Part shown: piece by piece, positions 12,562 to 16,910 of the stretch | Position numbering within the stretch: the first letter of the stretch is position 1 | Layout of the letters: every line of letters begins with the position of its first letter | NCBI GenBank assembly: GCA_002841865.1 | Contig: PHBD01000015.1 | Span: forward strand, 1 to 64,000 | Source of the DNA: Deltaproteobacteria bacterium HGW-Deltaproteobacteria-19 | Lineage (GTDB): Bacteria > Desulfobacterota > Syntrophia > Syntrophales > PHBD01 | Direction: 5' to 3' | Length of the DNA stretch: 64,000 nt | Notes under the pieces: generated by a model | The model's input: only the letters and a program-made list of their open reading frames with translations | Told to the model about the DNA's origin: nothing | Databases searched by the model: none | Translations under genes and position numbers: made by a program

Positions 12562-12604
12562 GCAAAAATAAGGGCCACCCCACCGGTTCGGCAGGGTAGC
12601 CCTT
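12562..12604 (-). terminator. Intrinsic terminator after the repeat protein
   Basis: AAGGGC-C-ACCC (12570-12580) pairs with GGGT-A-GCCCTT (12594-12604) with one internal mismatch. Read on the minus strand the stem is followed by TTATTTTTG, so it ends the TetR/repeat-protein transcript. Confidence 0.6.
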
Positions 12605-12629: not shown

Positions 12630-12917
12630 CTAGGCGGCGATTTTCAACGCGCCAAGGGGTTGAATGGCATCGTCATCGGACCAGACACGCTCGAAGGTGC
12701 CTTCCAGTTTTGCGGCCTCCCGAGGGGCGTGTCCCGGATGTATCGTGTCATGGGGGATGGATCCGTATCCGCCCTGTGACAGCATGTCCTTATCGGACCA
12801 TGCACGCTCCGTTCCCGTCTCAACCGTCATCGTTTCCATTTTGCATCCACCCTGAGACAGCATGTCCTTGTCGGACCAGACACGCTCCATTCCCAACTCA
12901 ATCGTCATGGTCTCCAT
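12630..12917 (-). CDS. Tandem-repeat small protein (95 aa), unknown
   Basis: Residues 1-26 and 27-52 are near-identical repeats built around ERVWSDKDMLSQGG and ERAWSDKDMLSQGG; a third degenerate copy, ERVWSDDDAIQPLG, occupies residues 76-89. The DNA repeats are 78 bases each (12917-12840 and 12839-12762). GAGGAG lies eight bases before the ATG and a terminator follows. There is no signal peptide or membrane helix. Two palindromic elements precede the gene and match those of the TetR gene upstream, so it is very likely that regulator's target. I know no family for it. A repeated-core peptide precursor is one possibility, but no modifying enzyme is adjacent. Confidence 0.6.
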   Translation of the reverse strand: METMTIELGMERVWSDKDMLSQGGCKMETMTVETGTERAWSDKDMLSQGGYGSIPHDTIHPGHAPREAAKLEGTFERVWSDDDAIQPLGALKIAA

Positions 12918-12944
12918 TTTAAATCTCCTCTCTGGTTCGGTATG

Positions 12945-12973
12945 TTACCATGGTAAATAAATGACCATGGTTA
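12945..12973. promoter_or_regulatory. Twin TetR operator before the repeat protein
   Basis: TTACCATGGTAA (12945-12956, perfect 12-base palindrome) and TGACCATGGTTA (12962-12973) are spaced 17 bases start to start. The same TNACC-2 nt-GGTNA element with the same 17-base period occurs before the TetR gene at 13660. The site lies 28-56 bases upstream of the repeat-protein start. Confidence 0.65.
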
Positions 12974-12989
12974 GTGTTCGGCAAAAAAA

Positions 12990-13619
12990 TTATCTGCTTT
13001 TCAACCCCTTCAGGATCAGGTCCACCGCAGCGTCGATGGTCGGCTTTCTGTAATCCGTGCTCTCTAAATCCATCCTGTTTTCCTGGAATTGGATGACACC
13101 CATAAAGCAGTTCCACAGGATTATGGACACCAGCTTTGCATCTACGTTGTGAAAAATACCCTGGTCAATTCCCTTTTGAACAGCCTGTTCCATCTGGTGG
13201 AAATTGGACCGCATCAGGCTCTTCAAGTTATCCAGGCGGTTCTTCGGCAACAGCCTTTTGAACTCGGCAGCGCGGTAATGGGAGACGAGGTGATACGAAC
13301 CGGGATCGTTGAAGAAGACATCCCTGGTGGCATCGATGATTTTCCTGACCGTGATTTCCGCCGGTTCTTCCGTGTCTTCGGCAATTTTAATAAGGCGCCG
13401 GCTCAGTTCCGCAAGGGCCGGCTCAACAATCTGATAGTAAAGGTCATCCTTGCTTTTGAAATAGAGGTAAATCGTGGCTTTGGATATCTCGGCCCGACGG
13501 GCGATTTCATCCAGGGACGTCTCCGCATATCCTTTTTTGTAAAAGAGCTCCGCCGCGATCTCCTGAATCTGCCTCAGTCGTGACTCTTTTTCTCTCTGCT
13601 TGCGCTCCACGATGCCCAT
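12990..13619 (-). CDS. TetR-family transcriptional repressor
   Basis: The 209-residue protein has an N-terminal TetR helix-turn-helix (about 15-60: AAELFYKKGYAETSLDEIARRAEISKATIYLYFKSKDDL) and a helical ligand-binding domain. The C-terminal half resembles the fatty-acid or acyl-CoA-type TetR regulators in overall helical pattern only, so the effector is unknown. Twin palindromes precede both this gene (13660-13688) and the tandem-repeat gene downstream (12945-12973), which predicts self-control and control of that small protein. Confidence 0.9.
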   Translation of the reverse strand: MGIVERKQREKESRLRQIQEIAAELFYKKGYAETSLDEIARRAEISKATIYLYFKSKDDLYYQIVEPALAELSRRLIKIAEDTEEPAEITVRKIIDATRDVFFNDPGSYHLVSHYRAAEFKRLLPKNRLDNLKSLMRSNFHQMEQAVQKGIDQGIFHNVDAKLVSIILWNCFMGVIQFQENRMDLESTDYRKPTIDAAVDLILKGLKSR

Positions 13620-13659: not shown

Positions 13660-13688
13660 TGACCACGGTTATATTATAACTGCGGTCA
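13660..13688. promoter_or_regulatory. Twin TetR operator before tetR
   Basis: TGACCACGGTTA (13660-13671) and TAACTGCGGTCA (13677-13688) are inverted copies of each other (TGACC/GGTCA ends), separated by TATTA, 17 bases start to start. They lie about 40 bases upstream of the TetR start. The half-sites match the pair at 12945-12973. Confidence 0.65.
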
Positions 13689-13775
13689 GTTAACGCGCAC
13701 GTCCGGAATTTGTCAAGTAGTTTTTCGGCCCGGATCGCATTTCATGGAGGGAGGACCGACCGGGCAACGAGGCCG

Positions 13776-13871
13776 TCAGGCGATGATGACCCGATCGCGT
13801 CCTTCGGGTTTTGCCCGGGAAAGGAACGCATCCACTCTGGCGATGAAGGATTCCGTCGTATCGGAGGAACG
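13776..13871 (-). pseudogene. C-terminal remnant of a GGDEF domain
   Basis: Just past the stop of the hemerythrin gene, the minus strand encodes SFIARVDAFLSRAKPEGRDRVIIA followed by a stop (the key residues are Ala-Arg-x-Asp, Ala-Lys and Gly-Arg-Asp-Arg-Val). This matches the closing helix and strand of GGDEF diguanylate cyclases (typically ADxALYxAKxxGRNRV). No start codon, signature GGDEF motif or remaining domain is present nearby, so it is a relic about 30 codons long. Confidence 0.5.
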
Positions 13872-13888
13872 GATGTTTCCCTTCCTGT

Positions 13889-14431
13889 TCAGAAGCGTCC
13901 GTCTTCGAAAGCATCCACCGCCCGGTTGTACTTTTCGTGGATCATCTTCCGGTCGAACTCCCAGAATTCCTCCAGCATGGCCTTTTGCTCGTCCTCGCTG
14001 AAATAGGAAAGGATCGGGTAGAAGAATCCCTTGTCCTCCTTGGCGATATGCTTCGGGTAAAACTCTGTCAGCCAGCGGAGGCATTCGACCACCGTGGCCA
14101 CGGCGGAGGTGTCACCCTTCAGGTATTGTTCCTTGGCCGCCACGAGGCGGGCCACGGTCTTCCGGCCCTCCCGGTGCTCCTCCATCAGTTCGTCCATGAT
14201 CCGGGCGTGCTCGGGGGTCAGCTTTTTTTTCTTCATTTCCCGGAAAAGGATGTCCTCTTCCTTGCCGTGGTGGGTCCGGTCGGCGTAGGTCCGGATGAAG
14301 TCCACAGCGACGTCCACCGCCACCGGGTTGACCGTGTTCTCGCGGTTGATCCGCTCGATCTCGACCTTTACGGCCCGGATCATCCGTTCGATGAGCCGGT
14401 GCTCCCACATCAGGGGTCCGATGGGTTTCAT
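13889..14431 (-). CDS. Hemerythrin-like iron protein
   Basis: The 180-residue helical protein has the hemerythrin HHE pattern: WEHRLIERMI (His 11), THHGKEEDILF (about 53-63), EEHREGRK (about 85-92) and a late HIAKEDKGFFYP. These residues would bind a di-iron centre that carries O2 or NO. The gene lies immediately downstream of, and in the same direction as, a Crp/Fnr regulator, which suggests an oxygen or nitric-oxide response. AGGAGGAG precedes the ATG. Confidence 0.88.
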   Translation of the reverse strand: MKPIGPLMWEHRLIERMIRAVKVEIERINRENTVNPVAVDVAVDFIRTYADRTHHGKEEDILFREMKKKKLTPEHARIMDELMEEHREGRKTVARLVAAKEQYLKGDTSAVATVVECLRWLTEFYPKHIAKEDKGFFYPILSYFSEDEQKAMLEEFWEFDRKMIHEKYNRAVDAFEDGRF

Positions 14432-15248: not shown

Positions 15249-16037
15249 ATGAACGCCACCCGGAAGATCATTCGCATCGACGAGGAGAAGTGCGACGGAT
15301 GCGGCCTTTGCGTGACCGCCTGCGCAGAGGGGGCGATCAAAATAATCGATGGAAAGGCCCGGCTGGTCTCGGACCGCTATTGCGACGGCCTGGGGGCCTG
15401 CCTGGGCGAATGCCCGCAGGGTGCCCTGGAAATCGTCGAGCGCGAGGCGGAGGCCTTCAACGAGCATGCCGTCCTGGAGCACCTGAAGCGGGACAAAACG
15501 GCGGACGAGGTGCCTGCGGAGACCCTGGCCTGCGGCTGCCCCGGGACCCATCTCCAGACCTTTCTCCGAACCATTTCCTGCGAAGAGGCCAACCGGCCGG
15601 TGGCATCCAGCCATGCATCTTCAGCCCTCGGGCACTGGCCTGTCCAGATCCGCCTGGTTCCACCGACCGCGCCGTTCCTGAAAGGAGCGAGCCTCCTGGT
15701 GGCGGCGGACTGTGTACCCGTGGCGTATCCGGCCTTTCACCGGGACTTTCTGCAGGGCAGGGTGGTTCTGATCGGCTGCCCCAAGTTCGACGATCCCGGA
15801 CCTTACATTGAGAGGTTCGCCCGGATCTTTGCCGCCAGCGAGATCCGAGACGTAACCGTCGCCGTCATGGAGGTTCCCTGCTGCCAGGGGCTGCCCATGA
15901 TCGTCCGGAAGGGGATGGAAATGGCGGGGAAAGACGTACCGCTGAAGAAAGTCGTTATCGGGACGGATGGAACCATCCGGGGTGAAGCGTCAAAACCGGC
16001 GCCGCCGCTCCCGATTATCGAGGCGGTGAAGGCCTGA
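15249..16037 (+). CDS. 4Fe-4S ferredoxin-domain protein
   Basis: The 262-residue protein opens with a ferredoxin domain (CDGCGLCVTAC at about residues 15-25, and a second, variant cluster CDGLGACLGEC). It then has a cysteine-containing alpha/beta domain (CGCPGTHLQ, LIGCPKFDD, VPCCQGLPMIV). Proteins of this build are often found with hybrid-cluster protein in anaerobes and may serve in electron transfer during NO stress. The start at 15249 has CGGAGGA upstream. Divergent from the Crp/Fnr gene; its 3' end overlaps the convergent radical SAM gene by 48 bases. Confidence 0.85.
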   Translation: MNATRKIIRIDEEKCDGCGLCVTACAEGAIKIIDGKARLVSDRYCDGLGACLGECPQGALEIVEREAEAFNEHAVLEHLKRDKTADEVPAETLACGCPGTHLQTFLRTISCEEANRPVASSHASSALGHWPVQIRLVPPTAPFLKGASLLVAADCVPVAYPAFHRDFLQGRVVLIGCPKFDDPGPYIERFARIFAASEIRDVTVAVMEVPCCQGLPMIVRKGMEMAGKDVPLKKVVIGTDGTIRGEASKPAPPLPIIEAVKA

Positions 16038-16910
16038 GTCCCGGGCGGCCCGGACGGCGGAGGCGTATTCCTGCGCCGTGATGCGGCGGTTGATGAGGGG
16101 ATCCGCCGCCCCCCGCCCGCAGGGATGGTACTGGTCCATCACGTTCACATAGGTGTATGGGGAGAGACCGGCCAGGAAGGCCATGACGTCGGTCGTGCCG
16201 GCGGCCCCGCCGGGCATCACCAGGTGGCGCACCAGGAGCCCCCGGACGGCAATTCCTTCGCCATCCAGATATAGATCCCCCACCTGGCGGTGCATCTCCC
16301 GGATCGCCTCGCAGGCCCGCTCCCGGTAGTCCTTCACGCCGCAGAACCGATCTCCCCATTCATTGTCCCAGAACTTGAAGTCGGGCATGTAGATGTCCAC
16401 GATGCCGTCCAGGAGGCGGAGGGTCTCCACGCTGTCGTAGCCGCCGGTGTTGTAGACGAGGGGAACGGAGAGGCCGTGCTCGGCGGCAATCAGGAGTCCC
16501 TCGAGAATCTGGGGAACCACGTGGGAGGGGGTGACGAAATTGATGTTTGGGCAGCCCCGCTCCTGGAGGTTCAGCATCATCGCCGCAAGATGGATCGGCT
16601 CCACGTCGTCTCCTGCCCGGCCGTGGCTGATATCGTCGTTTTGGCAGAAGGTGCACAGGAGATTGCAGGAGCTGATGAAGATCGTCCCCGATCCGCCGGA
16701 TCCCACGAGCGGCGCCTCTTCCCCGAAGTGGGCGTGGAAGCCGGCGATCCGGGCCTTCCGGCCGGTGCGGCACCAGCCTGCCTCGTCGGCCAGCCGGTTC
16801 CTGCCGCACGATCGCGGGCACAGGCGGCACTCCTCGAGCCCCCGGACGGCCGCCTCGGTGCGTCGTTCCAGTTCGCCCCGCCGGTGAAGTGCCAGATAGG
16901 ACGGTTCCAT
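15990..16910 (-). CDS. Radical SAM protein, PflA-like
   Basis: The 306-residue protein has the radical SAM cluster motif CNLLCTFC (CxxxCxxC) near residue 83 and an N-terminal Cys-rich segment (CRLCPRSCGRNRL, then CRTG) typical of the pyruvate-formate-lyase-activating-like subgroup with an N-terminal metal site. Members in this subgroup are usually of unknown substrate. The last 48 bases overlap the end of the convergent 4Fe-4S protein gene. A 79-residue membrane protein precedes it on the same strand by 22 bases, so they may share a transcript. Confidence 0.88.
   Translation of the reverse strand: MEPSYLALHRRGELERRTEAAVRGLEECRLCPRSCGRNRLADEAGWCRTGRKARIAGFHAHFGEEAPLVGSGGSGTIFISSCNLLCTFCQNDDISHGRAGDDVEPIHLAAMMLNLQERGCPNINFVTPSHVVPQILEGLLIAAEHGLSVPLVYNTGGYDSVETLRLLDGIVDIYMPDFKFWDNEWGDRFCGVKDYRERACEAIREMHRQVGDLYLDGEGIAVRGLLVRHLVMPGGAAGTTDVMAFLAGLSPYTYVNVMDQYHPCGRGAADPLINRRITAQEYASAVRAARDSGLHRLDNRERRRRF

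Follow-up and report, generated by a model that had tools for sequence, protein, structure and literature searches.

Acyl-CoA-responsive regulators of the TetR family, such as FadR of Bacillus, PfmR of Thermus, MbdR, AibR and KstR2, regulate the degradation of fatty acids or aromatic compounds, and FadP is a TetR-family, acyl-CoA-responsive repressor of degradation genes (review, PMC5343134). The repressor considered here resembles these regulators in having (i) a TetR_N domain and a fold match across the full length, (ii) an operator of the autoregulation type, (iii) orthologues that lie beside β-oxidation genes. It differs from them in that, in this genus, the strict operator marks only its own gene, tetR, and an orphan small gene, and not the genes for degradation. 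The product of that small gene is comparable with orphan microproteins under a dedicated repressor, being shorter than 100 residues, with a putative promoter of its own, and devoid of an enzymatic domain, but it is built of repeated ERxWSDxD motifs and matches no family in Pfam or NCBIfam. It also recalls multi-core RiPP precursors, which are likewise short and repetitive with a Gly-Gly near the end of the unit; unlike them, it has repeats that are not conserved in the sister species, no leader-core layout, no adjacent maturase and no lineage-matched one among the SPASM radical-SAM and YcaO genes.

The locus lies in a window of 64,000 nucleotides, by which is meant the whole stretch of DNA that was analysed, and comprises the following features.

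12570..12604, minus strand: intrinsic terminator of the small gene, its stem preserved in the sister, where T-G has become C-G and A-T has become G-C
12630..12917, minus strand: coding sequence of the 95-aa motif-repeat protein, ATG to TAG; product acidic, calculated pI 4.65
12633..12710, minus strand: C-terminal module (aa 70-95), with ERVWSDDDA; kept in the sister
12762..12839, minus strand: unit 2 (aa 27-52), METMTVETGTERAWSDKDMLSQGGYG, the counterpart, in the alignment, of the only N-terminal unit in the sister protein
12840..12917, minus strand: unit 1 (aa 1-26), METMTIELGMERVWSDKDMLSQGGCK, part of the 78-bp array
12925..12931, minus strand: ribosome binding site AGAGGAG, read from the sequence; the flanking AGAGAGGAGATTT is the same in the sister
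12946..12972, minus strand: predicted small-gene operator, ACCATGGT-N9-ACCATGGT; layout conserved in the sister
12956..12984, minus strand: promoter-like hexamers of the small gene, picked out by eye (-35 TTGCCG at 12979-12984; -10 TTTATT at 12956-12961, CATAAT in the sister; 17-bp spacer)
12990..13619, minus strand: gene for a TetR/AcrR-family repressor of 209 aa, 88% identical in the sister and 46-67% in the closest relatives of the same order
13661..13687, minus strand: predicted tetR operator, which reads ACCGCAGT-N9-ACCGTGGT along the gene and closely follows the -10-like hexamer of tetR on its downstream side
13688-13693 and 13711-13716: promoter hexamers of tetR read from the sequence, -10-like TTAACT and -35 TTGACA, respectively

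An earlier note on this DNA had described a 95-aa repeat protein with a ribosome binding site, its own terminator and operators paired with those of tetR. All of these elements are found at the locus, and the reading frame (12917-12630, minus strand) does contain two 26-residue units and a diverged C-terminal copy. TRF reports the 78-bp unit in 2.0 copies with 85% matches and a score of 231, well ahead of any other tandem array in the window. Units 1 and 2 are identical at 20/26 residues and 64/78 bases, with WSDKDMLSQGG free of any difference, while the third copy is reduced to the core KLEGTFERVWSDDDA (aa 70-84). The protein is predicted to be unfolded, with a mean pLDDT of 47 obtained from a two-row alignment, a low value that may reflect the alignment and not disorder.

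The sole homologue belongs to a sister species of the same genus (G001), where it occupies the corresponding place, between a CHASE2-cyclase gene and tetR. The region of the ribosome binding site is identical to that in the window, and gene order, operator layout and terminator stem are conserved. Two ERVWSDxD modules lie in the sister protein, near its two ends, and the tandem unit is absent. The tandem duplication is therefore most likely derived, and the pair of N- and C-terminal motifs is the conserved architecture; of the repeat architecture first described, the tandem units are real in this genome but are not shared by the sister. The N-terminal module was most likely duplicated head to tail at a later time, in frame and over 78 bp, in the window species. 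The lower dS from unit to unit (0.53) than between the sister genes (0.98) is consistent with a duplication after the split; that the sister has lost a unit is a less likely though conceivable alternative. The ERxWSDxD motif is kept in all five of the motif copies across both species, a record of apparent conservation that is thin because there are only two orthologues. Both proteins also end in Ala-Ala (IAA and KAA), and the tmRNA tag in both genomes ends in ALAA; the resemblance to a C-terminal degron is suggestive only.

The two small proteins are 55% identical, compared with 88% for the product of the adjoining tetR. Between species, the small gene has a dN/dS of about 0.37 (Fisher p=0.001), and unit 1 compared with unit 2 gives 0.27 (p=0.03), against 0.06 for tetR between the sisters. 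By these ratios the small gene is coding and under purifying selection, but loosely constrained. Relatives were searched with the protein and a two-row profile, in overlapping sets made up of the 60 nearest genomes, 155 of the class and 395 of the phylum (∼530 beyond the sister), and only the sister yielded a homologue; 85k named genomes, viral contigs and plasmids yielded none. Weak matches (E 0.01-0.8) were dismissed, as they lack the repeated motif, and one that was inspected (L006) falls within an unrelated long gene. When the 85k genomes were scanned for degenerate DNA encoding ERVWSD[DE]D, 63 stretches matched, and in no case did the match belong to a small protein that repeats the motif. 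The literature was searched for the locus and the motif, and nothing directly relevant was found. The small gene is a real, lineage-restricted orphan.

The adjoining repressor has its TetR_N domain at the N-terminus (PF00440, E=1.4e-16, 60.4 bits against a cut-off of 24), and its AlphaFold model (pLDDT 87.7) adopts the all-helical TetR fold across the full length. The nearest solved fold is that of PfmR (Z 20.7, 186 aligned, rmsd 2.2), with further matches to KstR2 (Z 19.5), MbdR (18.6), FadR (18.4) and AibR (18.4). Going by their entry titles, these nearest-fold regulators are presumably for the most part CoA-thioester sensors. DarR, a c-di-AMP/cAMP regulator, ranks between KstR2 and MbdR, level with the acyl-CoA regulators, so that the ligand class is assigned chiefly from gene context in other genomes. 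No NCBIfam equivalog cut-off is reached, the FadR-type equivalog NF053878 giving 51.4 bits against 200.

More than a dozen genomes within the order encode an orthologue of the repressor. Most of these orthologues have a similar paired operator upstream of tetR, with some sites more diverged, and several have a second site downstream. The next gene on the strand after an orthologous tetR is usually an SDR, then an acyl-CoA dehydrogenase or thiolase; other neighbours encode a thiolase, an AMP-ligase, a fusion of enoyl-CoA hydratase and 3-hydroxyacyl-CoA dehydrogenase, an acyl-CoA dehydrogenase or a CoA ligase. Because the orthologous TetRs mostly adjoin β-oxidation genes, the repressor is likely to be a β-oxidation-type regulator, and its signal probably of the acyl-CoA type. 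A paralogous TetR of the sister genome (L064, G001:C8), 42% identical, has a different operator-like palindrome upstream, TGAACGCGTTCA, and two orthologues (L052 and L053) have this palindrome next to one of the half-sites typical of the set.

Both predicted operator pairs in the window depart by 0-1 mismatches from ACCRYGGT-N9-ACCRYGGT, and each lies within a core promoter. At the small gene, where the promoter hexamers are missed by a consensus scan, one half-site falls within the 17-bp spacer and the other just 3' of the -10. Scanning the genome (3.98 Mb) at ≤3 mismatches returns three sites, namely the tetR promoter, the small-gene promoter and one intragenic match, and none with the reversed pattern as control. 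The intragenic match, which is identical in both sisters and falls in a lipoprotein-like coding sequence, was set aside as chance. The private TetR control proposed in the earlier note is thus upheld by a predicted operator in both core promoters, kept in the sister and essentially confined to this locus in the genome, and control of tetR and the small gene by TetR is well supported at the level of sequence. The regulon is apparently private for the strict paired motif (≤3 mismatches) alone, since sites with more than three mismatches, or single half-sites, may occur elsewhere. SDR homologues on other contigs of the window genome have no such operator nearby, and the link to fatty-acid degradation genes, by an operator there or by adjacency, is seen for most orthologues in other genomes and not at the sites tested here. 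Because the strict operator is found at tetR and the small gene, and the SDR homologues are without it, the repressor appears in this genus to have lost its local β-oxidation target and now to govern itself and the small gene.

On the far side of tetR, the window holds the remnant of a GGDEF diguanylate cyclase (13776-13890), in which ...NIRSSDTT is fused directly to ESFIARVDAFLSRAKPEGRDRVIIA. The sister has an intact PAS-GGDEF gene at this position, and the window is short by about 0.8 kb. At the remnant, around 13865-13880, identity to the sister changes abruptly, being 78-81% to the left and 91% to the right, and this step beside tetR is possibly a recombination boundary.

The preferred reading, held at a probability of about 0.45, is that the small protein is a multivalent, short-motif regulatory protein, induced by an acyl-CoA-type ligand within an autoregulated module. 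In such a module, tetR and the small gene would each have a promoter under the same repressor. TetR would occupy the paired sites and block RNA polymerase at both promoters, and an acyl-CoA or similar CoA-thioester ligand would free the repressor and allow the small protein to be made. More tentatively, the unstructured acidic product might serve as a multivalent binder acting through short linear motifs: its ERxWSDxD motifs, two ancestrally and three here, might dock on a partner protein and tune its activity when ligand is abundant, and duplication of the N-terminal motif would then raise the valency. Multivalent docking is a guess from the repetition and the predicted disorder. Among the roles offered in the earlier note, a scaffold or regulatory one is favoured.

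The third role offered there, that of a multi-core peptide precursor, taken here as a RiPP precursor cleaved after SQGG or crosslinked at WSD, is highly improbable. The tandem copies, the similarity of SQGG to a double-glycine cleavage site and the fit of WSD to the aromatic-X-X pattern of three-residue cyclophanes all speak for it, but the only homologue has AG in place of GG and lacks the tandem copy, and there is no leader-core layout, the first motif beginning 11 residues from the N-terminus. RiPP families in Pfam and NCBIfam give no match. The absence of a maturation enzyme nearby holds, the closest gene of this kind being a generic PflA-like radical-SAM gene at 15990-16910, at a distance of 3 kb, with a CRP-like gene and a ferredoxin gene of opposite orientation in between. 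Distant maturases of the SPASM and YcaO classes, compared by distribution, do not rescue the precursor: for both SPASM radical-SAM proteins of the genome and for its single YcaO protein, counterparts exist in relatives lacking the peptide. The PflA-like gene itself adjoins the ferredoxin/CRP cluster, and no link to the small gene was seen. Still further from probable is a regulatory RNA with an incidental reading frame. The transcription unit is short and has its own terminator, and the two genomes with the nearest TetR relatives, G012 and G028, hold possible counterparts without an ORF; codon-level purifying selection, the in-frame 78-bp duplication and the strong ribosome binding site nevertheless argue for a protein, and Rfam has no match in the region.

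The main rivals to docking are a young gene of weak function and feedback on TetR. The former, somewhat unlikely yet to be taken seriously, holds that in this genus a new ORF emerged behind tetR, or an older one changed there past recognition, and that its regulatory context is the main reason for its retention, the gain of a repeat being drift. Such a history would suit a gene with a homologue in one sister species only, an identity well below that of its tetR neighbour and an unequal number of motif copies between the sisters, and it would accommodate G012 and G028, where what comes after tetR is an operator-like site, then a short stretch that does not code, then terminator-like sequence. 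It accords poorly with a dN/dS well below 1 (p=0.001) and with the conservation of the ribosome binding site, the terminator stem and the motif. The intervening stretch in those two genomes (L050 in G012, L051 in G028) is ∼100 nt long and has no convincing ORF; it may represent a small gene since lost, or else a small RNA. Feedback, in which the protein would bind its own TetR, or the TetR-DNA complex, through the repeated motif as an anti-repressor or co-repressor, draws on the strict two-gene regulon, the adjacency of the genes and the lack of another dedicated partner at the locus. Orthologous TetRs in other genomes work without the small protein, and feedback is judged unlikely.

The preferred reading of a ligand-induced, motif-bearing regulator can be taken further, to a β-oxidation repressor captured by a new, intrinsically disordered microprotein whose repeated ERxWSDxD docking motifs make it a metabolite-triggered multivalent regulator of a kind not described before, with a valency that shifts between sisters by unit duplication; this fuller version is decidedly improbable. 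The interest of the locus lies in a rewired regulator and an unexplained motif, and not in a new class of system. It is an apparently clean case of regulator rewiring, in which a TetR that lies with β-oxidation genes elsewhere has come, in one genus, to have only its own gene and an orphan small gene as its strict regulon. Because the class of inducer can be guessed from related genomes, the locus is a tractable entry to the study of such a microprotein. Docking of the motif protein on an enzyme or on TetR, if borne out, would illustrate how new regulatory microproteins come to be recruited.
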